64,000 bases of DNA, from the NCBI GenBank assembly GCA_902762875.1, contig CACWPS010000002.1, forward strand, positions 1-64,000, in the 5' to 3' direction. Shown here in pieces: positions 15,457 through 31,130 of this stretch. The stretch's first letter is position 1. Every line of letters begins with the position of its first letter. The notes beneath the pieces are model-generated. The model ran no database searches and had not been told where the DNA came from. It saw only the letters and a list, made by a program, of their open reading frames with translations. The stretch comes from Oscillospiraceae bacterium. GTDB taxonomy: Bacteria; Bacillota; Clostridia; Oscillospirales; Acutalibacteraceae. Position numbers and translations under genes: made by a program.

Positions 15457-16692
15457 TTAAGCATTTTTACCCGCCGCAAAGCCTGTTGAAAAGGCAATTT
15501 GCAGGTTAAAGCCGCCTGTATATGCGTCGGCATCGATTATCTCCCCCGCAAAGTAAAGCCCCTTTATAAGCTTTGATTCCATCGTGGTTGGGTTAATCTC
15601 TTTAACAGAAATTCCGCCACCCGTAATTATCGCCTCTTCAATGGGTCTAAAGCCCGTAATATGAAGGGGTAAGGCTTTAATTACCCTACAAAGTGATGTC
15701 CGCATTTCACGGCAAATTTGATTGACCTTTAGGGTGGGCTCTATACCCGACAGGGCTATTATTACGGGAATTAAGCTCTTAGGCAGTAATTTATCAAGAG
15801 AATTTGCAAAATCTTTATTTTTTTCGTCCTCAAAATCCCGTAAAATGCGGCTGTCAAGTTGTTCGAGACTTAGTGCGGGCTTTAAATCGATATATGCGGT
15901 GTAGGTTGTCTTTCCCATTCTCCGCATATGAGCCGATGCGCTTAAGGTAAGGGGGCCCGATATTCCGAAGTGGGTAAAAAGCATTTCGCCAAGCTCCGAA
16001 AAAACGGGCTTTTTCTTGCCCTCTTCAAATACCGAAAGGGTTACATTTTTAAGCGCTAGTCCCGAAAGTCTTGAGCAAAAGCCCTCGTGTACCGTAAGGG
16101 GTACTAATGACGGTTTTAGCTCTGTCACCGTATGCCCCAAAGCCTGTGCAATTTTATATCCGTCCCCCGTAGAGCCTGTAAGAGGGTAGGACATTCCTCC
16201 GGTGGCTAGAATCACGCTGTCCGCCGAAATAACCTCGCCGTTTTCAAGCAACACACCCGCAACAGCACCATTTTCGGTAAGAATTTTTTTCGCAACAGCG
16301 TGAAGAATATCGGCACCGCTTTTTTTGACCGCTCCCACAAGAGCGTCAACAATATCCACCGCCTTGTCCGAAATGGGGAAAACCCTGTTGCCCCGCTCGG
16401 TTTTAAGGGGAACCCCCAAGGTCTCAAAAAGCCCCATTGTATCCTTTGAATCAAAGCCCGAAAAGGCAGAAAACAGAAATTTCCCGTTTTTAGGCACATT
16501 GGCAACAAGGGTGTCAACATCACAGTTATTTGTAACATTACACCTACCCTTGCCGGTTATCATAACCTTTCTCGCCGGCCGCTCGTTTTTTTCTATAACG
16601 GTTATCTCGGCACCTTTGCCGTATTTAAGCGAGGCGCTGTAAGCCGCCATAAGTCCTGCCGCACCGCTGCCTATTATTACAATTTTTTTCAT
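15457..16692 (-). CDS. NAD(P)/FAD-dependent oxidoreductase (HI0933/BaiN family)
   Basis: A 411-residue flavoprotein with the N-terminal dinucleotide motif GSGAAGLMAAYSAS near residue 8 and a second FAD motif, GLYFAGEIIDADAYTGGFNLQIA, split across the last 45 residues. GKGRCNVTN near residue 48 is the family signature. The biochemical role is unclear: some members were linked to bile acid reduction (BaiN), but most housekeeping homologues have no proven substrate, so BaiN should not be assumed. It is monocistronic between two terminators. Confidence 0.88.
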   Translation of the reverse strand: MKKIVIIGSGAAGLMAAYSASLKYGKGAEITVIEKNERPARKVMITGKGRCNVTNNCDVDTLVANVPKNGKFLFSAFSGFDSKDTMGLFETLGVPLKTERGNRVFPISDKAVDIVDALVGAVKKSGADILHAVAKKILTENGAVAGVLLENGEVISADSVILATGGMSYPLTGSTGDGYKIAQALGHTVTELKPSLVPLTVHEGFCSRLSGLALKNVTLSVFEEGKKKPVFSELGEMLFTHFGISGPLTLSASAHMRRMGKTTYTAYIDLKPALSLEQLDSRILRDFEDEKNKDFANSLDKLLPKSLIPVIIALSGIEPTLKVNQICREMRTSLCRVIKALPLHITGFRPIEEAIITGGGISVKEINPTTMESKLIKGLYFAGEIIDADAYTGGFNLQIAFSTGFAAGKNA

Positions 16693-16759
16693 TTCGTCAC
16701 CGCATAAATTTTTTATAGTATTATTTTACACCAAAACCCCAAAAAAGTAAATATGATAA

Positions 16760-16793
16760 TACTAAAAGAGCATCGCCGTTTTCGGCAATGCCC
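16760..16793 (-). terminator. Terminator of serC-serA
   Basis: On the minus strand GGGCATTGCC pairs with GGCGATGCTC around a short loop, followed by TTTTAG. It lies 18 bases after the serA stop. Confidence 0.8.
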
Positions 16794-16810
16794 TTAAATT
16801 TAATTTCCTA

Positions 16811-17971
16811 TTAAATTACTCGAACGCGGATAACGCCGTCTATTGCGCCGATTTTCTCGGCAACCGCCGAAATATCAGCCCCGCATATATCAAGCATAGT
16901 GTAAGCGTAGTCACCACGGGATTTATTCAAGAGGTTTTCAATGTTGATGTTATCCCCCGCAAAAATTCCCGTAATAGCGGTGAGCATATTCGGAATATTT
17001 TTGTGGATAACGCATACACGGTTTTCGCCGCTTCTGGGCATTGTAACCTCGGGAAGGTTTACAGAGTTGACGATATTACCGTTCTCAATGTAATCCATTA
17101 ATTCCTTAGCCGCCATAGATGCACAGTTGTCCTCCGATTCGGGGGTAGACGCGCCCAAGTGCGGAATAGCTATAACGCCGTCAACACCTAAAACATCATC
17201 GGTGGGGAAATCGGTAACATAAGCCGCTACCTTACCCGACTCTAAAGCCGCCTTTAGGTCGGCATCGTTCACAAGTGCCGCACGGGAGAAGTTAAGAATT
17301 CTAACACCCTCCTTGCACTTTGCAAGGGTATCGGCATTAATTAAATTCTTAGTGCTGTCTGTAAGCGGAACATGAATGGTAATATAATCGCAGTTTGCGA
17401 AAATCTCGTTAATATCGTTAATATGAACCGCATTGTGATTTAAGTTCCAAGCAGATTTAACCGACAGATAGGGGTCGTAGCCGTAAACGGTCATACCAAG
17501 GTGGTTAGCGGCATTAGCCACCATAACGCCGATAGCGCCGAGGCCTATAACACCAAGCTTTTTGCCCTTAATTTCAGGACCTGCGAAAGCTCCCTTGCCC
17601 TTTTCAACAAGCTTGCCCACAGCATCGCCCTCGCCCTTTAATGTCTTTGCCCATTCAATACCCGAAACCACTCTGCGGGAAGAAAGCAAAAGACCTGCAA
17701 TTACAAGCTCCTTAACGGCGTTTGCGTTAGCACCGGGGGTGTTGAAAACAACGATACCCTGCTCGGAGCAACGGTCAATCGGGATATTGTTTGTACCCGC
17801 ACCTGCCCTTGCTATAGCCTGCAAGCTTGCGGGGAACTCCTCATCGTGCAAGGCGGCGGAGCGGACTATGGCACCGTCCGCATTTTCTACCTCGTCGCCT
17901 ATTGTATATTTATCGTCAAAAACCTCAAGACCGCTTTTGGAGATTTTATTGTAGGTTTTAATCTTATACAT
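16811..17971 (-). CDS. serA: D-3-phosphoglycerate dehydrogenase
   Basis: The first step of serine synthesis: oxidises 3-phosphoglycerate to 3-phosphohydroxypyruvate with NAD. The NAD motif GLGAIG is at residues 143-148 and the catalytic region includes ARAGAGTNNI near 55 and PHLGASTPES with its histidine. The C-terminal 75 residues, from RVCVIHKNIPNML, form an ACT domain for serine feedback. At 386 residues it is a short SerA with ACT but no intervening ASB domain. Its start overlaps the serC stop by one base. Confidence 0.95.
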   Translation of the reverse strand: MYKIKTYNKISKSGLEVFDDKYTIGDEVENADGAIVRSAALHDEEFPASLQAIARAGAGTNNIPIDRCSEQGIVVFNTPGANANAVKELVIAGLLLSSRRVVSGIEWAKTLKGEGDAVGKLVEKGKGAFAGPEIKGKKLGVIGLGAIGVMVANAANHLGMTVYGYDPYLSVKSAWNLNHNAVHINDINEIFANCDYITIHVPLTDSTKNLINADTLAKCKEGVRILNFSRAALVNDADLKAALESGKVAAYVTDFPTDDVLGVDGVIAIPHLGASTPESEDNCASMAAKELMDYIENGNIVNSVNLPEVTMPRSGENRVCVIHKNIPNMLTAITGIFAGDNINIENLLNKSRGDYAYTMLDICGADISAVAEKIGAIDGVIRVRVI

Positions 17972-19053
17972 TATGCGTTTTCCTCCTCAAACTTCTTCAT
18001 AAACTCAACCAACTTTTCAACGCCCTCTACAGGCATAGCATTGTAGATAGAGGCTCTCATTCCGCCTACAGAGCGGTGACCCTTGATGTTTACAAAGCCC
18101 GCCTTCTTTGCCTCTGCAACAAATTTAGCGTCAAGCTCCTCGTTGCCTGTAACAAAGGGAACATTCATCAAAGAACGGTCCTCGGGAACAACCGTGCCCT
18201 TAAAGAGCTTAGAATTATCAAGGAAATCGTAAAGGATTTTAGCCTTTTTCTCGTTGACCTTCTTCATTTCGTCAAGTCCGCCCATCTTCTTTATCCACTT
18301 AAAGGTAAGACCCGCAATATAAATTGCATAGCAGGGCGGGGTGTTGAACATAGAGCCGTTGTCTGCGTGGGTAGCATAGTTAAGCATTGTGGGAGTAATA
18401 TCCATAGCGTTGCCGATTAAGTCCTTACGGATAATTACTATTGTAACGCCTGCAGGAGCAACATTCTTCTGCGCACCTGCATAAAGCATACCGAACTTTG
18501 TAACATCGATAGGCTCGGACAAAATACAGCTTGAAATATCAGCTACCAGCGGAACATCCCCTGTGTCGGGAAGCTCGTGATACTTTGTACCGTAAATGGT
18601 GTTGTTCATACAAATGTGAACATAGTCCGCCTCGGGGTCAAAGTCAGCGGCTGTGGTCTTGGGGATATAAGAGAAGGTCTTATCCTTAGAAGACGCAACC
18701 TCACGGGCCTTACCGTAGCGTGCCGCCTCTTTATAAGCCTTGTTAGCCCACTGGCCTGTGATAATATAGTCTGCCTTGCCGTTTTTATTCATAAGGTTAA
18801 GGGGTACCATAGCGAACTGAGTGGACGCACCACCCTGCAGGAAAAGCACCTCGTAATCCTCGGGGATATTCATTATTTCCCTAAGGTCCGCTACGGTTTG
18901 GTCGAATATTGCCTGATATTCCTTTGAACGGTGGGACATCTCCATTACAGACTGACCTGTCTCACCGTACTCTAACATCTCTGCGGCAGCGGTCTTTAAA
19001 ACCTCCTCGGGAAGCATCGACGGCCCCGCACTGAAATTGTAAACTCTTGCCAT
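17971..19053 (-). CDS. serC: Phosphoserine aminotransferase
   Basis: A PLP enzyme that makes phosphoserine from phosphohydroxypyruvate and glutamate. It begins ARVYNFSAGPSMLPEEVL, typical of SerC, and the PLP lysine is in AGAQKNVAPAG. The length is 360 residues from the ATG at 19053. I rejected an in-frame extension to 19119 because it would run through the promoter, while GGAGGG sits 7 bases before 19053. It forms an operon with serA; no serB phosphatase gene is in the window. Confidence 0.96.
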   Translation of the reverse strand: MARVYNFSAGPSMLPEEVLKTAAAEMLEYGETGQSVMEMSHRSKEYQAIFDQTVADLREIMNIPEDYEVLFLQGGASTQFAMVPLNLMNKNGKADYIITGQWANKAYKEAARYGKAREVASSKDKTFSYIPKTTAADFDPEADYVHICMNNTIYGTKYHELPDTGDVPLVADISSCILSEPIDVTKFGMLYAGAQKNVAPAGVTIVIIRKDLIGNAMDITPTMLNYATHADNGSMFNTPPCYAIYIAGLTFKWIKKMGGLDEMKKVNEKKAKILYDFLDNSKLFKGTVVPEDRSLMNVPFVTGNEELDAKFVAEAKKAGFVNIKGHRSVGGMRASIYNAMPVEGVEKLVEFMKKFEEENA

Positions 19054-19090
19054 TTTAAAACCCTCCATATTATATAGCGTGATGTATAAC

Positions 19091-19119
19091 ATTATATTCC
19101 TACAGAGGTAATTTGTCAA
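19091..19119 (-). promoter_or_regulatory. Consensus promoter of serC-serA
   Basis: On the minus strand: TTGACA (19114-19119), exactly 17 bases, TATAAT (19091-19096). A perfect match to the sigma-A consensus. Confidence 0.9.
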
Positions 19120-19221
19120 TAGGATTGTTAAAATGTTGTCAATCTTTTTTCTGAATTATAAAAATTATGAAAAAAGATTGTTATTTTTTTAACAACGACA
19201 TTAGTTTTAAATGCTAATAAA

Positions 19222-19291
19222 GGATGATGTGGGCATCATCCCCTACTCATACTCAATTAGCATATGTAGGGGACGATGCCCACATCGTCCC
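19222..19291. repeat. Paired inverted hairpin repeat, copy 1
   Basis: Two arms face each other (19222-19246 and 19266-19291). Each arm is a hairpin: GGATGATG with CATCATCC in the first, GGACGATG with CATCGTCC in the second, each with a 4-base loop and an outer GTAGGGG or its complement. The two arms differ only by paired changes that keep the stem. Related copies lie at 32372-32444 and 47928-47954. It is in the 3' region of the protease gene. Confidence 0.8.
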
Positions 19292-19306
19292 ATATAAATA
19301 AAGCAG

Positions 19307-19331
19307 AAAGGACGGCGCATTACCGTCCTTT
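19307..19331 (-). terminator. Terminator of the HtrA-type protease gene
   Basis: The arms AAAGGACGG and CCGTCCTTT enclose a 7-base loop. It lies 13 bases after the stop at 19344, with a T-rich tract beyond. Confidence 0.7.
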
Positions 19332-19343
19332 ACATAAAATATT

Positions 19344-20810
19344 TCAGCTAACCGCATTATTTGACCCTACCGTAACCGTGGTGGTATAATACCGTCCGCT
19401 GCGGTAGATTTTAACATTTACCTTATCATTCGGCTTGCAATCCTCAAGCGTTTCGCTTAAAACGGTGTAGTCGCTGATTGTCTTACCTGCAAATTCGGTT
19501 ATAATATCCCCCTTTTGGAGACCTGCGTTTTGGGCAGGACTTCCCTCGGCAACGCTTGAAATAACCGCTCCTGTGGGATAGCCGTAATATTGAAGCACGC
19601 TTGCGGTATACTTTTCACTTATAGTAACGCCGATATAAGGCTCGGGGTCGTTTTGCTTCTCGATTATTTTTTTGCAGATTTCCTTAACCGTGTTTGACGG
19701 AATTGCAAAGCCCATTCCCTCAAACTCCTCGGAAACGATTTTTGAGCTGTTAATTCCCACAAGCTGACCCTTTACATTCACAAGGGCACCGCCGGAGTTA
19801 CCGGGGTTAATTGCGGCGTCGGTCTGGATAAGCTTTACATCGGAATCGGAAGAAACCACCCTGTTAAGACCGCTTATAACGCCGTAGGTTACGCTGTCCA
19901 TAAACTCAAGTCCACCGGGATTGCCCACGGTTATTACATACTGACCCACCTTTAAATCGGAAGAATCCGCAAACTCTGCGGCGGTAAGCCCGCTTGCGTT
20001 TATCTTTAAGACCGCAAGGTCGGTATTTATATTGTAGCCCACAACGCTCGCCTCATAGGAATCCGAATCAAGGCTATCCACAAACACCTCTATTTTAGAG
20101 GCCGATTTGTTTGAAACTGCGCCCGAAACCACATGGTAGTTGGTGATTATATATCCGTCCGAGGAGTAGACAACGCCGCTTCCCTCGCCTGTTGACTCGC
20201 TTGTACCGCCGAAAAAGCTCATAACCGAGGTTGTTGTTCTTATGCCGACTACGCTGGGAGTCACCTTTTTCGCCACCGCCTCAACCACCGATTCGGCGGT
20301 TTCATCAATATTGATATTTACATTTTGACCCGATACATTCGAGACAGTAGATGCAGAGCCGATATCGTCGTCACTTTTACCTATACCTACCGCCGCTATT
20401 CCGCTTACCGCACCTATAACCGCCGCAAGCAGAGCCGCGGCAATTACTACACCCGCGCCGTATTTCCTTTCCTTATTAGGCTTTTTTTGTTTCGGCGGTT
20501 TATAGCTGTAAAGGGGTCTTCCCGTATGGGGGTCAAAGTTTGCGCCGTACTCACCGCTCGGGAAAAAGTCCCTGCGGGGCGGCGGGGTCTGCTGCGGGCT
20601 TTCTTTCTGCTCACTATTGCCCACAGGCTCCGCCGTATAAGCGGTATCGCTCCCCGAAAAAGCCCCGTCCTGAATAATATCCTCACGGCTTTTGGTGTAA
20701 AAGCCGCCGTCGGGCGTTACGGTGTATCCGTTATTTTCACCCGGTGTATCATTACCGTTTACCGAATCAAATCCGTTCAGCTCGCCGCTTTGCTTATTGA
20801 AATCGTCCAT
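19344..20810 (-). CDS. Membrane-anchored HtrA/DegP-type serine protease
   Basis: A quality-control protease facing the cell exterior. A long polar N-terminal region (about 115 residues, rich in Gly, Pro, Asn) precedes one membrane segment (VVIAAALLAAVIGAVSGIA). The trypsin-like domain has the triad His in NYHVV, Asp in NTDLAVLK and Ser in NPGNSGGALVN; a single PDZ domain (AGLQKGDIITEFAGKTI) follows. I set the start at the ATG at 20810, because GAGGAG lies 8 bases before it; an upstream in-frame ATG at 20864 lacks one. It is 488 residues, like Bacillus HtrA/YycK/YvtA paralogues, and appears monocistronic. Confidence 0.92.
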   Translation of the reverse strand: MDDFNKQSGELNGFDSVNGNDTPGENNGYTVTPDGGFYTKSREDIIQDGAFSGSDTAYTAEPVGNSEQKESPQQTPPPRRDFFPSGEYGANFDPHTGRPLYSYKPPKQKKPNKERKYGAGVVIAAALLAAVIGAVSGIAAVGIGKSDDDIGSASTVSNVSGQNVNINIDETAESVVEAVAKKVTPSVVGIRTTTSVMSFFGGTSESTGEGSGVVYSSDGYIITNYHVVSGAVSNKSASKIEVFVDSLDSDSYEASVVGYNINTDLAVLKINASGLTAAEFADSSDLKVGQYVITVGNPGGLEFMDSVTYGVISGLNRVVSSDSDVKLIQTDAAINPGNSGGALVNVKGQLVGINSSKIVSEEFEGMGFAIPSNTVKEICKKIIEKQNDPEPYIGVTISEKYTASVLQYYGYPTGAVISSVAEGSPAQNAGLQKGDIITEFAGKTISDYTVLSETLEDCKPNDKVNVKIYRSGRYYTTTVTVGSNNAVS

Positions 20811-22307: not shown

Positions 22308-22357
22308 TAAAAAAACCGCCCTTTCTCGGGATATTATTCCCGTAAAAGGAGCGGTTA
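22308..22357 (-). terminator. Terminator upstream of the GerA-family gene
   Basis: On the minus strand AACCGC...CCTTT pairs with AAAGGGCGGTT around an inner CGGG/CCCG stem, followed by seven T just before the ATG of the germination gene. It probably terminated the Ytr-like permease operon before the island separated them: the neighbouring 22366-22482 is the end of such a permease gene. Confidence 0.75.
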
Positions 22358-22474
22358 TTTACCCATTATTCAAGATTAAGCTTTTTTGTAAGGAAATGAC
22401 GGGTGATTATAAAATAAACCGCCGAAAGCAACGCCGAGTAAACAATCAAAAACGCTAAAAATACCTCTAAATAC
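22351..22474. repeat. Left direct repeat flanking the GRE island
   Basis: About 124 bases aligned without gaps to 30308-30431, with about 9 mismatches by my hand alignment (about 93 percent identity). Similarity stops abruptly after AAATAC on the inner side, next to the activase stop codon. Confidence 0.9.
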
Positions 22475-22482
22475 AAAATCAT
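22366..22482 (-). pseudogene. Remnant: C-terminal end of an ABC-2 permease gene
   Basis: Translating the minus strand gives a 38-codon open frame whose last 36 residues match the C-terminus of the complete permease at 30324 (shared YLEVFLAF, ITRHFLTKKLNLE). The rest of the gene is missing; the frame begins at an ATG that overlaps the activase stop as ATGA, which is probably a junction accident. It marks the left edge of the inserted island. Confidence 0.85.
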
Positions 22483-23282
22483 TCAAAAACCGATTTTAAT
22501 TCTATCATATGCTTTTCGTCGGGTACATTAAATTCATGCTTTACCATATTTAGCGCATCATATTTATGTGTTCCCAAGCTATGATACGGCAAAAGCTCAA
22601 TTTTTACAGGACAATACGGTTGCAAAAAGCTTTTAATTCTTTGCATCTCGCCGACTGAATCGTTAACGCCGCAGATAATCGGTATTCTGATACAGATATT
22701 TGCTCCCGCTTCAAATAATTTTTTCAAATTATCCAATATAACTTTATTGTCAGCTCCCGTATATCGTTTATGTTTTTCCCGATCAAAAAGCTTTATGTCA
22801 TACAAAAACAGATCGGTATGCTTCAAAATTCTTTCAAAATACTCCCAAGGAACATTTCCGGCGGTATCGACAGCAGTATGTATTCCGTTTTCCTTGCATT
22901 TTTCGAGTATTTCGCAAAGAAAATCAATTTGTAGCATACATTCTCCGCCGGAGAAGGTTACCCCTCCTTTTGAATTTTCATAAAAAGCTTTGTCTTTTAA
23001 AATCTCATTTAGGACTTCGTCGGAATTATATTCTTTTCCGCAAATTTCTTTTGCGCCGTTAAAGCATATAAAGTCAGCATCATTTTCCGTTACATTTTGG
23101 CAGCGTCCGCACCCGGTACATTTATCACTGTAAAACATAATTTGCGGTTTTGCGGATTGGCTTTCGGGATTGTGACACCACGCACATCTTAAATTACAGC
23201 CTTTGAAAAATACCGTTGTGCGAATACCCGGTCCGTCCACAAATGAATTTCGCTGTATATCAAAAATTGTTGCTTTTTTCAT
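22479..23282 (-). CDS. Glycyl radical enzyme activase (radical SAM)
   Basis: Probably installs the glycyl radical on the GRE encoded at 26716. The radical SAM motif CNLRCAWC (CX3CX2C) is at residues 29-36, after the family-typical DGPGIRTTVFFKGC. The insert that usually holds two ferredoxin-like clusters has only Cys55, Cys58, Cys61, Cys73 and Cys81 (CX2CX2CX11C), so probably one auxiliary 4Fe-4S centre. TFSGGE follows near residue 110. It is 267 residues, with GGAGG 5 bases before the ATG. It is last in the operon and its 3' end abuts the permease remnant. Confidence 0.92.
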   Translation of the reverse strand: MKKATIFDIQRNSFVDGPGIRTTVFFKGCNLRCAWCHNPESQSAKPQIMFYSDKCTGCGRCQNVTENDADFICFNGAKEICGKEYNSDEVLNEILKDKAFYENSKGGVTFSGGECMLQIDFLCEILEKCKENGIHTAVDTAGNVPWEYFERILKHTDLFLYDIKLFDREKHKRYTGADNKVILDNLKKLFEAGANICIRIPIICGVNDSVGEMQRIKSFLQPYCPVKIELLPYHSLGTHKYDALNMVKHEFNVPDEKHMIELKSVFE

Positions 23283-23309
23283 AAAGCCTCCGTTTCATAC
23301 TCCGTTAAA

Positions 23310-24458
23310 TTACACCGGCATTTTTTGCAGTTCCGATATCCTTTTCTGCCATATTTTTGTATTATCAACCTCAGCATTAAACAAAATTTCAAATATTTGT
23401 TTAGCTTGGCTCAAATGTGCTTCGCATTTAAGCAAATCATAATTTCCCGATGCATCATAATCGGTTAAATTATCAATATTTTTCGGTAATTGCGGAATCC
23501 AGATATGATTAAGAGACCAGCCTTTAAAATATTGCTTTAATTCAGAAGGGTTTTGTATTATTTCAGACAAATTATCAATGTATCGATTCATTTCAGCCTT
23601 GCTTTCGCCGTCAAAAACAGTTATTTTTGTACCCAGTATATCAAATTGATACGGAACAATATCAAAAGAAATCTTTGACTTATTTATGTCGAGTATTGTG
23701 AAATATCCGTAATACCACGAATCTTTATTGTCGGTTTTTTCGGTATTCTTAAAAAGAAAGTTTCCCATACTGTATATAATCGGTTTTCCGTTATAAGTTT
23801 CATATCCTTGCGGACAGTGGGTATGCCCCGCAATAACAGCATCCGCACCCATATCACAAATAAATCTGTAACGTTCTACTGTATCGGGCGACGGCAGCGG
23901 ATTGTGCTCATTGCCGCCGTGAAATACAACAATAATGAAGTCGGAAACATTTTTTTCGGCTTGGATTTTGTTCATCAAAAGTCTTGGGTTGTATCCTGCC
24001 GAACCTGCTTTATTTTCCTTGGCAATTCCAAATTCATTTTCGCATACAGATAACAAGGAAATTGTAATGCCCGCTTTTGATATTCGCATAGCTGAATATG
24101 CCTCGGAAATATTATTGCCTGCGCCTGCATATTTTATATTATTCTCATCTAAAAGCTTGAGAGTGTTATTCAATGCTCCGTCACCATAGTCTCCTATGTG
24201 ATTATTGGCAAGTGTAACCGCATATGTATTCATGGCTTTCAAAAAAGAAATGCAATTTTTCGGGCAAATTAAATTCGGACCGGCTTTTTTAATTGGCATA
24301 TAGTCCTCTTTGTTACCCAAAGGACATTCCAAATTCGGTATTACAAAATCCACACTTTTGGTATAAGGTATTATATCATTTAATATTTCCAAAGATTTAT
24401 CGTAATCGAGATTATCTATTCCTCTGAAATTTATATCTCCCGTAAATAACAGTTTCAT
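23310..24458 (-). CDS. CapA-like metallophosphoesterase-fold protein
   Basis: A 382-residue protein of the CapA/PGA_cap family. Visible motifs are FTGDINF at residues 4-10, NLECPLG near 51, LANNHIGDYG near 100 and the pair VVFHGGNEH and IAGHTHCPQG, all expected metal-site positions. CapA of Bacillus takes part in poly-gamma-glutamate export, but this copy has no signal peptide or membrane anchor and sits in a catabolic-looking operon, so it may be a cytoplasmic phosphatase or amide-handling enzyme. GGAGG precedes the ATG. Function is not assigned. Confidence 0.8.
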   Translation of the reverse strand: MKLLFTGDINFRGIDNLDYDKSLEILNDIIPYTKSVDFVIPNLECPLGNKEDYMPIKKAGPNLICPKNCISFLKAMNTYAVTLANNHIGDYGDGALNNTLKLLDENNIKYAGAGNNISEAYSAMRISKAGITISLLSVCENEFGIAKENKAGSAGYNPRLLMNKIQAEKNVSDFIIVVFHGGNEHNPLPSPDTVERYRFICDMGADAVIAGHTHCPQGYETYNGKPIIYSMGNFLFKNTEKTDNKDSWYYGYFTILDINKSKISFDIVPYQFDILGTKITVFDGESKAEMNRYIDNLSEIIQNPSELKQYFKGWSLNHIWIPQLPKNIDNLTDYDASGNYDLLKCEAHLSQAKQIFEILFNAEVDNTKIWQKRISELQKMPV

Positions 24459-24463
24459 AATAC

Positions 24464-25801
24464 TTATTCCTCCGTTTTATCACATTCGATAAGCATTTGT
24501 AAAGTCAGCTCCAGTGCCTCCAAAAAGCCTTCAATGTTTATACATTCATCCGATTGGTGCGCTCCGCCGTGCCCCTTAGGTGTGTTATCGGGAGTGCCCC
24601 ATCTCAGCGTTGTTCCAATCTCTGCAGCACACGGGAGTTGTCTTGCATATGTTCCGCCTGCGTTTATATATGCTTGCGGTTTACCGTCACCGGTAAAATC
24701 ACTGTATGCTTTGAGACACGCATTTATATAGCTGTTATCCGTCGGCACAATATAGCCTTTCTTTTCTTCTTCAAATTTGACTGTGCAGTTGTTTTTTTCA
24801 AAGAAAGAAACAATGCTTTTTTTGATATTTTCGGTATTGGCAGACAGCCCGAATCTCATATTAAATCCAAGCATAATTTTTTTGTTGTCGTTTTTAATTA
24901 TACCGTTTGTGCAGGTTAGTTTTCCGCACTCGTCTTGGTGTTCAATCCCATAAACTTCACCATAATATTTTTCCAAAACGCTCATTAAAAACAGCATTTG
25001 TTCTCTGTCTGATGCGCAAATATCCTCACGCTCGGAAAGCTTTTTTGCAAGCAAATATCCCGCATTTAACGAACCCTCCGGCAGCGCAGAATGACTTGAA
25101 ATTCCCGTTTCGGTTACAGTTTCACCATTCACCACAGCCGAAGCTTTGTCGAGAATGATATTCATTGCATTTCCGCCGTGAAAATTTTTAATGTCTTTTA
25201 ATTCTGTATTTAAAGTAACCCAAAAATTCATCATACTTTTATCTCCTCTGTAAAGAGGAAATGCCGTATCGCAAATCAAAGAAAAATCAGGTGCGGTATG
25301 CTTTTTTGAATATTCCTCAATATCCGACATTCCCGTTTCCTCGTTTGCGCCCGTAAACATAACCAGCCTCGAATTAAACGGAATATTAAGTTCCTTTAAA
25401 ATTTTTGCGCAGTAGAGCGATATTACAACGGCGGATTTATCGTCAAGCATGCCACGGCCTATTAAATATCCGTCCTTTTCAATCGGTTTAAAAGGCTTAG
25501 TATGCACCCAGTCTTCACCGACATCAACCACATCTGCATGGGCAAAAAGTCCAAGCGTCCTTTTTCCGTTACCGAAATACGAAAGCAAATATCCGCCCTG
25601 TCTGTCAAGCTCTGTTTCAAAACCGTTTTCTGAATAAAGCTTCTCTGTATATTCCAAAACATCGGCACAAGCCTTTCCGAAAGGTGCTTCAAGCTCCGTA
25701 GCTCCTCTTACTGACGGAATTTTGACGAGCTCCTTTAATGTTTTTAATATTTCATCTTTGTGTTCACCTACATAATCATGTATCTTTTCCGTGTATTCCA
25801 T
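24464..25801 (-). CDS. M20 family metallopeptidase (PepV/dipeptidase-like)
   Basis: A 445-residue zinc peptidase. Metal ligands expected for the family are visible: His and Asp in FAHADVV, Asp in GRGMLDDKSA, the catalytic Glu pair in GANEETGM, Asp in LICDTAFPL, and a C-terminal His in GGAHQSDE. A dimerisation lid domain sits between. The closest named groups are PepV and other dipeptidases that cleave Xaa-containing dipeptides such as beta-alanyl dipeptides. I chose the ATG at 25801 with GGAG 8 bases upstream. It lies between the hydrolase and the CapA-like gene with gaps of a few bases. Confidence 0.88.
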   Translation of the reverse strand: MEYTEKIHDYVGEHKDEILKTLKELVKIPSVRGATELEAPFGKACADVLEYTEKLYSENGFETELDRQGGYLLSYFGNGKRTLGLFAHADVVDVGEDWVHTKPFKPIEKDGYLIGRGMLDDKSAVVISLYCAKILKELNIPFNSRLVMFTGANEETGMSDIEEYSKKHTAPDFSLICDTAFPLYRGDKSMMNFWVTLNTELKDIKNFHGGNAMNIILDKASAVVNGETVTETGISSHSALPEGSLNAGYLLAKKLSEREDICASDREQMLFLMSVLEKYYGEVYGIEHQDECGKLTCTNGIIKNDNKKIMLGFNMRFGLSANTENIKKSIVSFFEKNNCTVKFEEEKKGYIVPTDNSYINACLKAYSDFTGDGKPQAYINAGGTYARQLPCAAEIGTTLRWGTPDNTPKGHGGAHQSDECINIEGFLEALELTLQMLIECDKTEE

Positions 25802-25814
25802 AACCAATTCTCCT

Positions 25815-26723
25815 TTATTTTCCGCATAGCATTGTCAGTGGATTTTCCTTCAATATTTTCTTTGCGATATTCTCATCAAGCTTAGGTACTATATGCTCAA
25901 ACATATATGACCACCGCGGTGCCTTTATTTGCGGCATATCGCAAAATCCTTGAAAAACCGAATCATCATGGGATAAAAGTAATCTATCTGCATATCCCGC
26001 TTCGCAAAGAGCATTTATCTGATTGATTTTTGATGTTATATAATCTTGCCGTTCGTTATCATACATTCTGTCAAGAGCAACATAACAGCCTAACTTTGCA
26101 AAATTTTTAATATATTCATTATCATTTGTGTCACTTAAATGCCCTACAACTATATTTTTCGGATTTACATTTTCGCCGAGCAAAATTTCAACCGCTTTTA
26201 TTCCGTTTTTGTTATTTGCGTTTGTATGCAAAATAATAGGAAGTCCTGTCTTCTTTTGAGCAAGTGCTGAGGCTTTCAAAAGCTTGATATTAAAAGGTGA
26301 AACCGTGTCATATTCAACCGCCGATTTTATTACTCCGGCACAAGTATTATTTGCATCCTCAGCAATAAAATCCGCAAGTGTTCGGGCGGACATACAGTCT
26401 AAAATCGGCTCATCGTTATAATAAAATCCCGTTGAGCAAACTATATCGACTCCCGACAATTCAGATACTTTTTTCAACAGTTCAACATCTCTGCCGATAT
26501 TTACGGGAGTGCAATCTATAAACAACGCCAAGCCGTATTTTTCTTTCATATTTTTCAGAATATCGGCTGATTTTTCCGCAAGCGTAGGCTTATCTAAATA
26601 GCCTTTTGACATTATATTAAGATATTCGGAATAACAGCATATATGCTCATGAGAAAGGGTTACTGTATTCTTGCTGATTTTCTTTTTTCCGAAAACGGTT
26701 CTTACTTCAACAAAATTATTCAT
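25815..26723 (-). CDS. Phosphotriesterase-like amidohydrolase/lactonase
   Basis: A TIM-barrel metal-dependent hydrolase of the phosphotriesterase homology family, 302 residues. Binuclear site residues are visible: HxH in TLSHEHICC near residue 24, the bridging lysine in GVIKSAVEYD, His in LHTNAN and VGHLSDTND, and Asp in LLSHDDSVF. Natural substrates of this family are mostly lactones and phosphorylated sugar lactones, not organophosphates. Its start overlaps the GRE stop by 8 bases, so the two are translationally coupled. It may process the substrate or product of the GRE. Confidence 0.86.
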   Translation of the reverse strand: MNNFVEVRTVFGKKKISKNTVTLSHEHICCYSEYLNIMSKGYLDKPTLAEKSADILKNMKEKYGLALFIDCTPVNIGRDVELLKKVSELSGVDIVCSTGFYYNDEPILDCMSARTLADFIAEDANNTCAGVIKSAVEYDTVSPFNIKLLKASALAQKKTGLPIILHTNANNKNGIKAVEILLGENVNPKNIVVGHLSDTNDNEYIKNFAKLGCYVALDRMYDNERQDYITSKINQINALCEAGYADRLLLSHDDSVFQGFCDMPQIKAPRWSYMFEHIVPKLDENIAKKILKENPLTMLCGK

Positions 26724-28836
26724 TGTGCGTTGTCCTTTTTATAATATCATTTTGTATGCTTTCCTGAAGATTTACAAAATAATCTGAAAATCCCGTAACT
26801 CGTACCCGAAGACTGTTATATTTTTCAGGGTCTTTTTGAGCGGCAAGAAGGTCTGCCTTTGAAACATATGTAAGCTGAAAATGCACACCGCCGTTTTTGA
26901 AATATGCCTCAAACATATCAACTACCTTTTCAAAATAGTCATCGTTTTTGATTAGCTGTTCATCAAGCGAAATATTCGTAACCGTACTTCCGCATGAAAT
27001 TCCGTATGGGTCAAGCTTGGCAACGGAATTTAAAAGTGCTGTCAATCCTTCCCTGTCCTTGCCCTCGCTCTGACCGATACCGAATTTAATCAAATCACCG
27101 TTAAAACGACCGTCGGGAGTGGCTTTTGTTTTTTCGCCGAACCATTTATGATGCTCGTTGTATCCCAGAAGGTCGCCTATAAGCCATTGATAGCCGAATA
27201 CATTTTTCTTATCCTTTAAGTGGTTATAAAAGCTTGTGTACACCCTCCCGGCAACATAATTGGATATTTCGTCATCGTTGCCGAAAAACTTCCCGGTTTT
27301 TAAAATCATTCTTCTCAAATTTTCATACTCGTTCCAATTAGACTGAACCGCATTAATAAGCTCGCTCATAGTTATGGCTTTGCTATCAAAGACAAATTGC
27401 TTTACAACTATAAGAGAATCGATAACGTTTGTTATTCCCAAAAGCATAGGCGAGGCGATTACAACATCTCCGCCGCCTTGTGTAAGGCTTTTTGCATTTT
27501 CTATGCAATCGTTAAAAACCAGACTTGATACATAGTTTATATCCTTTGCACGAGCAAGATTATATTTGTCATCGTATTCATAAATTTTATCAATATCAGA
27601 GAGCATTTCTCTTTCAAATACTTCGTAAAATTCGTCAAAGCTTTTGACTTTTTTTATACTCTCGGATTTTTCGTGGAAAACAGTTTCCACACACTTTACA
27701 ATGTTGCCCTTTGAATTACTTCCTGTAATTGCTCCCAAAAATGCAGGCTCATTGCAGCCGACCATAGTATAATTAACGGCTCGCTCAAAGGGAAAGCCGC
27801 AAATTTCGGTATAGCACTTAATACGCTTGTCATCATTTGTAAATGCAAAACGCTTGAATTTATCCTTTCTTTCGCAGTCCATCACAAATTTCAGCACTTC
27901 TCGGGGTGTTTTTTTCGTCCATCGTAAAGTGATTTGGGGGCAATAAATAGGTAATTCAATCAAGCTTTCGACAATCAATTCAGACACTTCGTTAAATCCG
28001 TCCTCGCCGTTCGGTAAATATCCGCCTATACAAAAATGCGATTCTCCGCCGCGTGTAAAATTGCCCGAAAGCGGCGATTTTGCCTGAATCATCAAAAATA
28101 ATTCCTGCAAATATTCCTTTGCTTTATCTTTTGTTATCGCCCCCGATTTTATATCATTTTCATAAAACGGTGTTAAATATCTGTCAAGAGTTCCCACACT
28201 GTCGGGGTCAAGGCTGAAGCAAACATAAATAGAAAGTACAGCCTCATAAAAATTGCTCGGACCGGTTTTCGGAACATTCAAAATCGCCTCTGATAATTTT
28301 TCCAAATTAGCTCTATATTCCGCTTCTTTAACGGTTTTTGAAAATTCAAGCACTTTAGCGGAGCATTTTTCCGCCCATCCGATTACAGCGTAGGCAATTT
28401 TTTTCAGGCCGTTTAAAAATTCAATTTCTTCCGTTTTATTGTGTATTTCAAGAGATTTTTCAATATCCCCGATTATTCCTAAAATACCCTTGTTTAAAAC
28501 CTTGGCATAGTCCGCCGTTGCGTGCTGCCATTCCATTGTGGAAAGATTATCCAAAGGCTTCAGATAAAACAAATTCATTATTTCTCCGGTGGCTTTATGC
28601 ACGCTCCTGCCAAAGGCGTCACCGACAACACTTCCGTCAAATCTGAAAAAGCCCGTCAATGTTGAATATTTTGTAATTTTGGGTTCTTGATTTAATATGT
28701 ATTCGCAAATTCTTTTTACCTGCATCTCATTTTCAGATAAAAATAAATCCTCTCGGTCAAATTTTGTTTTTATCGGATTTACATACATTTCTCCGCTTAA
28801 TGTAAGCTCTGTTAATTTTTCTATTCTTTCAATCAT
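26716..28836 (-). CDS. Glycyl radical enzyme of unknown substrate
   Basis: A PFL-superfamily enzyme of 706 residues, shorter than the usual 760-850. The C-terminal radical motif RVTGFSDYFVNL places the radical glycine about 25 residues from the end. The thiyl cysteine is in VGCNEPAF near residue 361; the Cys-x-Glu arrangement occurs in the dehydratase, choline lyase and arylacetate decarboxylase branches and not in pyruvate formate-lyase itself, which has two adjacent cysteines. GCNEP differs from the common GCVEP. It is therefore unlikely to be PFL. The start is the ATG at 28836, with AAGGTGAT 6 bases upstream. It leads an operon with a hydrolase, peptidase, CapA-like protein and activase. 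No microcompartment or transporter genes are near. Confidence 0.93.
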   Translation of the reverse strand: MIERIEKLTELTLSGEMYVNPIKTKFDREDLFLSENEMQVKRICEYILNQEPKITKYSTLTGFFRFDGSVVGDAFGRSVHKATGEIMNLFYLKPLDNLSTMEWQHATADYAKVLNKGILGIIGDIEKSLEIHNKTEEIEFLNGLKKIAYAVIGWAEKCSAKVLEFSKTVKEAEYRANLEKLSEAILNVPKTGPSNFYEAVLSIYVCFSLDPDSVGTLDRYLTPFYENDIKSGAITKDKAKEYLQELFLMIQAKSPLSGNFTRGGESHFCIGGYLPNGEDGFNEVSELIVESLIELPIYCPQITLRWTKKTPREVLKFVMDCERKDKFKRFAFTNDDKRIKCYTEICGFPFERAVNYTMVGCNEPAFLGAITGSNSKGNIVKCVETVFHEKSESIKKVKSFDEFYEVFEREMLSDIDKIYEYDDKYNLARAKDINYVSSLVFNDCIENAKSLTQGGGDVVIASPMLLGITNVIDSLIVVKQFVFDSKAITMSELINAVQSNWNEYENLRRMILKTGKFFGNDDEISNYVAGRVYTSFYNHLKDKKNVFGYQWLIGDLLGYNEHHKWFGEKTKATPDGRFNGDLIKFGIGQSEGKDREGLTALLNSVAKLDPYGISCGSTVTNISLDEQLIKNDDYFEKVVDMFEAYFKNGGVHFQLTYVSKADLLAAQKDPEKYNSLRVRVTGFSDYFVNLQESIQNDIIKRTTHNE

Positions 28837-28863
28837 ACAAATCACCTTTTTGCATTTTTGTTT

Positions 28864-28892
28864 ATTATATCGAATTTATGCTTTTCAGTAAA
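28864..28892 (-). promoter_or_regulatory. Promoter of the GRE operon
   Basis: On the minus strand: TTTACT (28887-28892), a 17-base spacer, TATAAT (28864-28869). The weak -35 box fits an activator-dependent promoter, and the divergent AraC-type gene is the obvious candidate. Confidence 0.6.
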
Positions 28893-28932
28893 TGTATTAT
28901 ATAGCTTTTTTATATTTTTCATCACTTTTTTA

Positions 28933-28961
28933 TTGACGTATAAAAATGCCCGCGATATAAT
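28933..28961 (+). promoter_or_regulatory. Promoter of the divergent AraC gene
   Basis: TTGACG (28933-28938), a 17-base spacer, TATAAT (28956-28961). Its position shows that the AraC gene starts at 28978 and not at the upstream in-frame start at 28858. Confidence 0.75.
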
Positions 28962-28977
28962 TTATACGGTGATTAAA

Positions 28978-29760
28978 ATGTTCGGAAATAAAAACTTTAA
29001 TATTAAAGAAATATCATCGGTGGCTTTGATAAAGCCAAAAGAAAACGAAAGCAGAATAATACACTACGGCAATAAATTACCGAGATATGAGCTGATTTAT
29101 AAGCTTTCGGGCGAAGTTATAACTCACTTTAACAAAAAAGTATTCCATATAAAGCCCGGTGCGGCGTATATTATCCCTAAATCCGAAAATGCCGATTATT
29201 ATATAGAACGAACAATTCCCGGCGATTGCATAGATATATTTTTTGACACGGATATTTCGTTAGGACAAAATCTGCTTTTACTTGATTTTGATGAAAATAA
29301 TAAAATTTTGAATTTGTTTCAAAAAATATATAGACTTTGGCTTACAAAACCTAACGGATACTATTTTAAATGTATGTCTGCTGTTTATGAAATTTTATAT
29401 GAAATGCTTTTAAAAAGTGAACAATATTCTACCAAAAGCAATTACAAGAAGCTTGAACCGGGTATAGAATATATCCATAACAACTTATACGATGACATAG
29501 ATTATAAACGGCCGTCGGAAATTTGCGGAATAAGCTATACGTATTTTAAAAAGCTTTTCATTGAAAAGTTCGGTGTGCCGCCCGTTCGCTATGTAAATGA
29601 TATGCGTCTTGAGAGAAGCAGGGAACTGCTTTTGACGAATAAATATTCGGTAGGTGAAATTGCAAAAATGTGTGGATTTGAAAATACATATTATTTTTCA
29701 AAAAAATTCAAAGAAAAATATCAATCTTCCCCGACTGCTTATAAAAATTCGGCACAATAA
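28978..29760 (+). CDS. AraC-family regulator of the GRE operon
   Basis: A 260-residue regulator. The N-terminal half is a cupin-like sensor domain (LIYKLSGEVITHF, then FHIKPGAAYIIPK). The last 100 residues hold two helix-turn-helix units: PSEICGISYTYFKKLFIEKFG and YSVGEIAKMCGFENTYYFS split across the domain, ending in the usual SSPTAYK. GGTGAT lies 5 bases before the ATG. It is divergent from the GRE operon, 141 bases away, with both promoters inside, so it probably controls that operon in response to its substrate. Confidence 0.9.
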   Translation: MFGNKNFNIKEISSVALIKPKENESRIIHYGNKLPRYELIYKLSGEVITHFNKKVFHIKPGAAYIIPKSENADYYIERTIPGDCIDIFFDTDISLGQNLLLLDFDENNKILNLFQKIYRLWLTKPNGYYFKCMSAVYEILYEMLLKSEQYSTKSNYKKLEPGIEYIHNNLYDDIDYKRPSEICGISYTYFKKLFIEKFGVPPVRYVNDMRLERSRELLLTNKYSVGEIAKMCGFENTYYFSKKFKEKYQSSPTAYKNSAQ

Positions 29761-30283: not shown

Positions 30284-30307
30284 CTGTTGTTCATCCAAAT
30301 CATAAAG

Positions 30308-30431
30308 GGCGGTTATTTACATATTATTCAAGATTAAGCTTTTTTGTAAGGAAATGACGGGTGATTATAAAATAAATCGCCGAAAGCAACGCCGAATAGA
30401 CAATCATGAATGCCAAAAATACCTCTAAATA
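30308..30431. repeat. Right direct repeat flanking the GRE island
   Basis: The counterpart of 22351-22474. It includes the last 36 codons and the stop of the intact permease gene plus 16 bases beyond it. Confidence 0.9.
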
Positions 30432-31130
30432 CATCACCGAATTATTTATGAGGTTGTTAAACTCCTCCATACCGCCTGCGCCCACAAAGGCAATCGGTAT
30501 CATAATAAGCGAAGTGATTATCTGAACTGCGGCGTAAAGGCAGATATAGGATATCGCCGCACCGCCGACCTTGTTTTTAAACTGCTGACCCAGCGCCATT
30601 GCCGCATAGAACATCAAGAGCGACTGTAAGGGTGCCAATAGCAAAAGCAGTACTATTTCCGAAGAAATTAAGGCAATCTGCCCTACCGACAGATACTCGG
30701 GTAATACTGTAATTGTTAATTTTACAGCATCTAATATCTCCCCTAAGACTTCGGTTCCCGCACCTAAAATAAGGAGCGAGCCGATAACGATAATAAAATC
30801 AATTATTATCACAACAGCCCCGCAGACAAGCTTGCAGACTATGTGCTGTGTTGGGGTAAAGGGCAGAGTAAAGGTAAGATACCCCTCATGGGTCAAAAGG
30901 TTTTTGTAAAACCGCATTACCACGATTACAAGGCCCACTATAAATACGGCTATTATGGCGAATATGTATGCCGTTACGCTAAGTCCCCTAACCATATCTA
31001 AAACATCATTCTCCAAATCGGTTAAAAAGGTAAGGCGGGATAACGCCGCAAACCCGATAAGCGCCGCCCAAATAGGCAATAGGCTACGGAAGAGCGAATG
31101 AAATTCGTGTTTATAAAGCTTCTTTAGCAT
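30324..31130 (-). CDS. ABC-2 type transporter permease
   Basis: A 268-residue integral membrane protein with about six hydrophobic segments, for example AYIFAIIAVFIVGLVIVVM, VIIIDFIIVIGSLLILGA and FLAFMIVYSALLSAIYFII. Together with the ATPase that overlaps its start by 7 bases and the GntR regulator upstream it forms a Ytr-like system; in Bacillus such systems respond to cell-wall antibiotics. The substrate is unknown. A second copy of its 3' end lies at 22366-22482 across the GRE island. Confidence 0.85.
   Translation of the reverse strand: MLKKLYKHEFHSLFRSLLPIWAALIGFAALSRLTFLTDLENDVLDMVRGLSVTAYIFAIIAVFIVGLVIVVMRFYKNLLTHEGYLTFTLPFTPTQHIVCKLVCGAVVIIIDFIIVIGSLLILGAGTEVLGEILDAVKLTITVLPEYLSVGQIALISSEIVLLLLLAPLQSLLMFYAAMALGQQFKNKVGGAAISYICLYAAVQIITSLIMIPIAFVGAGGMEEFNNLINNSVMYLEVFLAFMIVYSALLSAIYFIITRHFLTKKLNLE

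Follow-up and report, generated by a model that had tools for sequence, protein, structure and literature searches.

Which reaction is carried out by a glycyl radical enzyme (GRE) that is encoded together with three hydrolases, and how did its operon come to lie where it does? The locus in question belongs to an Oscillospiraceae bacterium (assembly GCA_902762875.1) and was analyzed within a stretch of 64,000 nucleotides of contig CACWPS010000002.1, called here the window. On the minus strand the gene order is GRE (26716..28836, 706 aa), phosphotriesterase-family hydrolase (PTE, 25815..26723), M20 metallopeptidase of the Sapep/PepV dipeptidase-like subfamily (24464..25807), CapA-like metallohydrolase-fold protein (23310..24458) and radical SAM GRE activase (22479..23282), with an AraC-family regulator diverging on the plus strand (28978..29760). 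A preliminary description of this DNA had proposed these six genes; all were recovered at the positions given there, and Pfam matches bore out their families. Our answer, in which belief and doubt are evenly balanced, is that the operon is a horizontally acquired, self-contained cassette for plant substrates: exchangeable hydrolases would release a small polar core, on which the GRE then carries out a radical elimination. Gut bacteria of herbivores probably use the cassette to degrade some plant-derived compound.

A separate clade of glycyl radical enzymes

The enzyme belongs to the GRE superfamily, since Pfam Gly_radical and PFL-like both match over their cut-offs and the two motifs previously reported for it, GCNEP around the catalytic Cys and RVTGFSDYF around the radical Gly, are present. 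It had been described as of the Cys-x-Glu type and outside pyruvate formate-lyase (PFL), which is what we find; by NCBIfam and PDB scores it also lies outside HypD and CutC. It falls below every NCBIfam equivalog cut-off, the best match being HypD (270.9 bits vs 1100). Other scores were 263.3 and 227 bits for the sulfopropanediol dehydratases HpsG/HpfG (NF048011/NF048009, cut-offs 1000), 218.5 for the choline trimethylamine-lyase CutC (TIGR04394, cut-off 1050), 207.2 and 154.7 for the indoleacetate and hydroxyphenylacetate decarboxylases (NF033718/NF033715, cut-offs 1100/1150) and 72.8 for PFL (TIGR01255, cut-off 994.2). Its chemistry is therefore not predictable from the named families.

Together with 54 relatives, 42-92% identical and coming from metagenome-assembled genomes (MAGs), mostly of ruminant and hindgut Clostridia, the window GRE forms one clade. 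In a tree with six paralogues, a "quick" build with SH-aLRT support only and two long outgroup branches, the 55 members are monophyletic (support 100, stem 1.22). No tight clustering with HypD, CutC or PFL was seen, as the preliminary description had expected, and the GRE stands as a separate clade outside the named families. When the family hidden Markov model was run on 13 neighborhoods, near-complete members scored at least 993 and other GREs of the same genomes at most 349; a 305-aa family fragment scored 462, and one member was not called.

Within the order, 12 of the 394 genomes searched have relatives at E <= 1e-90; the count includes the window's genome, and three further genomes of its genus have none. 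Across the phylum there was one among 398 genomes, again the window's own. In these protein searches no more than a few candidates were scored for each genome. When one genome was scanned for each of 84,980 species, 102 relatives came up, of which 80 were kept, all of them from MAGs. Goat, roe deer, sheep, water buffalo and water deer were the hosts most often named (45 of 80), and 20 more loci carry only a SIG, SUG or RUG code. GREs encoded on plasmids reached 27-28% identity at most among the best 8 of 36 matches. The GRE frames are broken or uncallable in MAG contigs L099, L106, L038, L082 and L089.

A profile built from the 55 members was compared with structures in the PDB, reaching 354 bits with CutC and 347 with diol dehydratase, while 6lon, 8id1, glycerol dehydratase and HypD lay within 354-332 bits. 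Scores to structures of several chemistries are close, and 8iof, deposited as a benzylsuccinate synthase alpha subunit, scored 304 bits, above several CutC entries; arylacetate decarboxylases, moreover, share the Cys-x-Glu arrangement. These points favor a decarboxylase, a C-C lyase or a hydrocarbon-fumarate ligase in place of an eliminase. Against this, the other decarboxylases and X-succinate synthases score below CutC and diol dehydratase (HPAD 208, TutD 212, MasD 230 and 7e7l 257 bits), and we consider such an enzyme very unlikely.

Several residues conserved in the family fit an eliminase. The catalytic pair is C364/E366 in the 709-codon numbering (C361/E363 in the 706 numbering). The Cys is found in all 55 alignment rows, and a pattern for the radical-Gly motif matches 53 of 54 relatives, L048 being the exception; the universality of GCNE is partly by construction, because YT[MT][VM]GCNE was one of the two patterns used to search for relatives. 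H108, C364 and G685 are common to 94-100% of 71 paralogues, and the family-conserved Q107, D215, H270, N365, G561-Y562 insertion, Q592 and Y660 occur in 0-15% of them. Active-site equivalences were taken from HMMER alignments and by counting between conserved residues; E268 and N563, whose placing against HypD is ambiguous owing to gaps, were not used. H108 is aligned with His164 of glycerol dehydratase, and H270 stands where glycerol dehydratase and HypD have Asn. In HypD the counterpart of H108, matched by eye, is His160; according to the excerpted text of PMC7077986 this residue tunes Glu436 in the CXE motif, and changing either of the two gave inactive variants. Both hallmarks of GRE eliminases, Cys-x-Glu and a partner His, are thus present; the conserved residues support a putative eliminase with a new pocket and do not name its substrate, and elimination is the chemistry that we infer.

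A narrower possibility, near the view of the preliminary description, is a HypD-like dehydratase acting on a hydroxylated or otherwise modified amino acid that the M20 enzyme frees from small peptides. The acidic D215 is invariant in the family, the M20 protein passes the cut-off of the Sapep dipeptidase-like subfamily and is the most frequent hydrolase of the family loci (10 of 20 homologues), and the best NCBIfam match of the activase is the HypD activase (338.6 bits, below the cut-off of 425). PTE and CapA, on the other hand, give no hint of peptides, the HypD equivalog is matched at about a quarter of its cut-off, and HypD Asp278, counting from the shared Asp, maps to the variable position 213, which together leave this dehydratase distinctly unlikely.

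There are three Gly_radical matches in the whole of the window's genome (1.69 Mb, 97.6% complete); judging by their sequences and neighboring genes, we take the two besides the GRE to be a PFL (743-aa open reading frame, ORF) and a class III ribonucleotide reductase (725-aa ORF). The reported lack of microcompartment genes extends to this whole genome, with 0 matches to the BMC family PF00936. Other genomes are richer in PFL-like matches (28 in G314, 28 in G253, 26 in G152, 23 in G243, 16 in G090 and 11 in G015), counts that include pieces of one gene. Most full-length GREs of those six genomes measure ~650-790 aa and have differing C-x-E motifs (GCYEP, GCWEV, GCIEN, ACWEF and others); among ten scanned with NCBIfam, an equivalog cut-off was passed by two PFLs only, and one more passed the PFL2-3 subfamily cut-off.

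Exchangeable partners and a conserved operator-like site

The partners were compared across 77 loci, which are the 80 kept relatives minus L038, L082 and L089, where no GRE was called; loci L019-L031 are repeats of genomes within L032-L111. A divergent AraC gene stands beside the run in 49 of the 70 loci with enough upstream sequence, and an activase belongs to the same-strand run in 40 of the 61 with enough downstream sequence. The cassette core is a divergent AraC regulator facing a GRE and its activase, and PTE, M20 and CapA vary in the downstream run.

In the window, the PTE gene matches Pfam PTE with 146.8 bits (cut-off 22.4), has the metal-ligand motifs HEH, K, H, H and D, and scores 107.8 bits with the organophosphate hydrolase model OPH NF041153, under its cut-off of 500. 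The M20 gene matches Peptidase_M20, has the ligand motifs and passes the TIGR01887 subfamily cut-off (239 vs 207.95 bits), remaining below the PepV equivalogs NF005591 (237.1 vs 435) and TIGR01886 (176.1 vs 632). The CapA-like protein matches Pfam PGA_cap with CapA-type motifs present; it had been said to have no signal peptide, and none was seen by eye. GRE and PTE genes overlap by the 8 nt that had been claimed (26716-26723). The activase, of the Radical_SAM family, scores 318.1 bits with TIGR02494 (cut-off 174.35). It has the CX3CX2C motif and only 5 Cys in the next 75 residues; because most activases of family loci have 8-10 Cys after this motif (34 of 45, the other 11 having 5), one auxiliary cluster may be missing from it.

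Homologues of the hydrolases (>60 bits) number 6 for PTE, 10 for M20 and 4 for CapA in the 77 loci, and 20 of 20 lie inside the same-strand run downstream of the GRE, which agrees with their earlier description as its operon partners. GRE runs hold 95 of 1126 ORFs, giving a Fisher p of 4.6e-23 for the enrichment (relatedness ignored), and the hydrolase genes mostly stand after the GRE and before the activase, their frames overlapping or almost in contact. It could still be argued that they are passengers of a mobile cassette with no role in the GRE pathway: they occur in only 14 of the 77 loci, patchily on the tree, and their relatives elsewhere have no GRE-pathway partner nearby. Their position within the run and the 20 detected copies confined to it make this extremely improbable.

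The partners are exchangeable. The 14 loci with hydrolases show six different sets, eight counting SDR, and the presence of any hydrolase changes at least nine times on the tree. The five genes had been presented as a fixed unit; among the 77 relatives the set is complete in L061 only (plus SDR), and L032 reads GRE-PTE-M20-CapA up to the contig end. A fixed five-gene pathway is ruled out by the varying partner sets across loci and tree. Because there is no fixed set, the proposed dipeptide or amide/lactone substrate is unsupported as stated; the partners do not spell out a single fixed substrate. In L033, L043 and L073, whose GREs are 83-84% identical, the sets are, respectively, no hydrolase ahead of the activase and a beta-lactamase-family serine hydrolase gene behind it, M20 with CapA, and PTE with M20. 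Further partners in family loci are SDR (12 loci), a beta-propeller, a 7-bladed lactonase and GH3; the beta-propeller protein of L093 had no PDB match at E <= 0.01. In L052 (3544-8557) a single activase comes after two GRE genes in one run.

The order of reactions can be conceived the other way round: the GRE would work on the molecule while it is still whole, and the hydrolases would then open a lactone, amide or ester that the radical reaction has made accessible. PTE relatives include lactonases (a phospho-furanose lactonase model was matched below its cut-off), L101 has its 7-bladed lactonase gene just upstream of the GRE, and reaction order is not readable from gene order. Closely similar GREs with different or no hydrolases fit an exchangeable trimming of the input better than a fixed product, and we hold the GRE-first order to be unlikely. 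Trimming by the hydrolases first, which we prefer, would account for the pairing of similar GREs with different hydrolases.

PTE, CapA and M20 were also considered as families dedicated to GREs, an idea rejected because, as far as flanks of 1.5 kb reach, their uncommon relatives outside GRE operons sit in other contexts: CapA relatives (E <= 1e-40) are found in 22 of 394 genomes, PTE relatives (E <= 1e-40) in 3 of 394 and M20 relatives (E <= 1e-70) in 3 of 380, the window's own included.

A conserved operator-like site is seen ahead of most family GREs examined. In the window it forms part of a predicted GRE promoter, AAAAATATAAA-N14-CATTTAC-N18-TATAAT (28864..28919, minus strand), in which CATTTAC overlaps the -35 hexamer. 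The site was studied in 51 upstream regions, those of the window and of 50 of the 77 loci, chosen mainly for a divergent AraC gene, 9 of them added later. The 7-mer CATTTAC occurs in 16 of the 51 regions, vs one coding and one more distal control window (50 of each). By a matrix trained on the very regions scored, the extended site, cGAAAAgTaCAAA-N14-yATTTAC with TATA ~17 nt on, lies above the 99th percentile of shuffles in 37 of the 51, in none of the 50 coding controls and in 2 of the 50 distal ones. A divergent AraC gene accompanies the site in each of the 36 relatives that have it; of the 14 relatives lacking it, 6 have such a gene, and most of these 6 show near-matches with shifted spacing by eye. 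Operator-like sites with TATTGAC may be ordinary promoters.

Within the window's genome the operator pattern has a single match, at the GRE promoter, and across 10 genomes it was found at six places in 5 genomes, two of them ahead of family GREs; a first, narrower pattern had missed the window site, its -10 spacing being too tight. In G314 this narrower pattern lies ~40 nt before the start of a stand-alone activase gene (L251 553-1461, contig 126), and the family GRE of that genome (L091) has no activase in the run after it. The wider pattern is also present in L254 (G314 contig 58) before an ORF starting MKKIFFIGDSIRQGYDN, SGNH-hydrolase-like by eye.

The gene starts on both sides of this region were revised in part. 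For the GRE, the reported 706 aa agree with an ATG at 28836, preceded by AAGGTGA, which resembles a ribosome-binding site; the ORF itself opens at GTG 28845 and has 709 codons. The AraC gene is present and divergent as described, and its protein has the AraC helix-turn-helix; its start is most likely ATG 28978, giving 260 aa, about the length of many relatives, and not TTG 28858. With starts at 28836 and 28978 the intergenic region measures 141 nt and has promoter-like sites in both directions, that for AraC being TTGACG-17-TATAAT (28933..28961, plus strand), a consensus match only.

Cassettes at gene 3' ends

The operon of the window was acquired horizontally. It is enclosed by two 130-nt direct repeats, at 22346..22475 and 30304..30433, which are 92% identical and of which no further copies were found in the window's genome. 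The right repeat is the 3' end of an ABC permease gene itself (30324..31130, minus strand; named by eye and position, beside an ABC ATPase gene), the apparent insertion target; the left is a displaced copy that encodes the same permease C-terminus in frame with two conservative changes. Direct repeats of the target gene's 3' end at both ends are the mark of a 3'-end genomic island. GC content between the repeats is 37.4%, vs 45.4% and 45.0% in the flanks, and GC at third codon positions is 31-38 in the six operon genes and 48-53 in seven flanking genes. In the closest relative, L032 (GRE 92% identical), DNA homology ends 10 nt past the AraC stop, and the neighbors of its cassette are presumably rpsD, rpoA and rplQ, going by their translations. 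The preliminary description made no mention of the island with its 130-nt repeats, of cassette arrays or of the conserved operator-like site.

Similar repeats were looked for by self-comparison of 43 loci with flanks of at least 3 kb, and direct repeats of at least 40 nt across the GRE were found in eight. They close around the module in L041, L061 and L090, are short, distant or at the contig end in L045, L059, L063 and L106, and in L036 reflect tandem GRE modules. The repeats of L041, L061 and L090 are copied from the spoIVB 3' end (family PF05580). A search with the spoIVB C-terminal peptide matched 14 of 174 sequences, namely 13 of the 80 family loci plus L021, which repeats L058; L033 and L097, both among those matched, are near copies. 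In 80 loci with mostly other GREs (L142-L221; ~4-19 kb, shorter than most family loci) there were 0 matches.

The array of L036 reads spoIVB end, IclR gene, GRE and activase, a copy of the end, AraC|GRE and activase, another copy, and again AraC|GRE and activase; L041 has four spoIVB-end copies and L090 three. An alignment of 22 copies showed nine to be preceded by spoIVB coding sequence, in one case (L041_8922) a 79-aa fragment only. Twelve of the remaining 13 start at the same codons after the junction TTGTTGTCCnnnnTTGACmACACTCsTG, with small variations, L041_7545 being the exception. A junction matrix, trained on 10 of its 14 sites, found these 14 in 11 loci at 28.6 bits or more, and none that reached 15 bits in 571 kb of shuffled sequence; it misses two L090 sites with a one-base gap. 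Conservation of the junction is possibly in part coding, because it overlaps the last activase codons in some loci; in L051 it comes after other genes. No exact match was found in viral contigs. Other cassettes of the arrays hold GH42 with EamA, GH5 with EamA, or an FGGY kinase with a GH120 insertion domain and a xylose-isomerase-like barrel (the last below the Pfam cut-off). Next to the family cassette of L043, at 15607-19941 and flanked by two spoIVB 3'-end copies, lies a second GRE-activase-AraC cassette, a paralogous one that points the opposite way.

The geometry of the window is that of the spoIVB arrays, with another target gene and without the junction. The 3'-end repeats lie at the cassettes, and from them site-specific mobility would follow as the probable mode of spread.

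Proposed pathway and known systems

In our proposal the cassette, bringing along a copy of the permease gene's 3' end, was inserted at that end, as related modules would have been at the spoIVB 3' end, in tandem in several genomes and in the manner of cis-mobilizable elements. The AraC protein would activate the divergent GRE promoter, as suggested by the second half of the operator overlapping the -35 box, and the radical SAM activase, by family knowledge, would install the glycyl radical. The cytosolic metal hydrolases PTE, M20 and CapA may act first, freeing a small polar molecule from different plant conjugates. C364 would then form a thiyl radical, with E366 and H108 as the acid-base pair of a GRE eliminase, and the enzyme would remove water or a similar leaving group. 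The hydrolase-first order is our interpretation of the exchangeable partners, and the plant origin of the substrate is suggested by the GH42, GH5 and GH120-type genes in other cassettes of the spoIVB arrays.

Several results weigh against this proposal. The hydrolases are not required, because only 14 of the 77 loci carry any. No GRE, activase or other GRE-pathway partner was seen within 1.5 kb of 25 other CapA, 2 other PTE and 2 other M20 loci, a flank too short for a GRE three genes off, in a survey where the ORF caller overlooked even CapA at 5 of 26 loci. The plant link from the neighbors of PTE and CapA relatives outside GRE operons is weak, because just three of ten neighbor ORFs look carbohydrate-related (GH1, a GH97-like protein below the cut-off and a glucuronyl/acetyl-xylan-type esterase). 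The window operon has no transporter, kinase or dehydrogenase for the GRE product. As regards mobility, neither the window's island nor the 20 array ORFs tested yielded a recognizable recombinase, the spoIVB junction has 0 matches in the window at up to 3 mismatches, and the target gene there also differs. In 41 other loci the GC content of the GRE minus that of the flanks has a median of -0.4 points (range -14.3 to +5.8), so that low GC is a trait of this acquisition and not of the family.

As a tentative generalization, which we consider a little less likely than not, herbivore-gut Clostridia might keep a bank of cassettes with which to handle plant compounds. These would be operons under regulators of their own, many of them centered on GREs of ~700 aa that are undescribed and have new chemistry; site-specific recombination would move them into the 3' ends of chromosomal genes, spoIVB above all, and they would accrete in tandem and swap front-end hydrolases while retaining the GRE. 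The literature matches listed hold no description of this GRE partner set or of spoIVB as an integration site, which is no proof of absence. In the excerpted part of the review PMC11574389, the many abundant gut GREs of unknown function are an acknowledged gap; one such family now has a boundary, a probable transfer unit and front-end hydrolases that narrow the search for its substrate, and the operator-like site predicts inducible expression of the cassette. The data also point to a radiation of GREs, genomes having as many as 28 PFL-like matches (pieces of a single gene included), and suggest that uncultured bacteria of ruminants have a cassette system, possibly a mobile one, for the catabolism of plant matter.

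Among known systems, the GRE eliminases (glycerol/diol dehydratase, HypD, CutC, isethionate lyase) share with the window GRE the sequence family, Cys-x-Glu, the active-site His and a radical SAM activase. They differ in length, with 785-849 aa (one PDB entry 1150) against 706, and the alignment of the family to the structures shown begins only at residue ~101-114. Q107, D215, H270, N365, the GY insertion 561-562 and Y660 are found in the family only, the window's genome has no microcompartment, and the window GRE stays below every equivalog cut-off. The ssrA islands of Dehalococcoides, as far as the excerpted text of PMC3146451 describes them, are tandem, low in GC and loaded with catabolic cargo, with direct repeats of a gene 3' end and beside these a conserved motif that is absent at the true gene, some islands having no integration module. 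Tandem arrangement, catabolic cargo, low GC (in the window's island), 3'-end repeats and a motif lacking at the true gene recur here; the target, in contrast, is spoIVB or a permease gene, the cassettes are mostly one regulator-controlled operon, and no integrase module was seen in the loci examined. From cis-mobilizable elements, described in the excerpt of PMC5704250 as keeping att-like ends, having no recombinase or transfer genes and accreting in tandem at one gene end, the cassettes differ in that their excision and transfer are predictions from repeats and junctions. They resemble these elements in their att-like ends, in the lack of recognizable recombinase or transfer genes and in their tandem accretion, and a cis-mobilizable nature would be the reason why a recombinase is missing from the cassettes.

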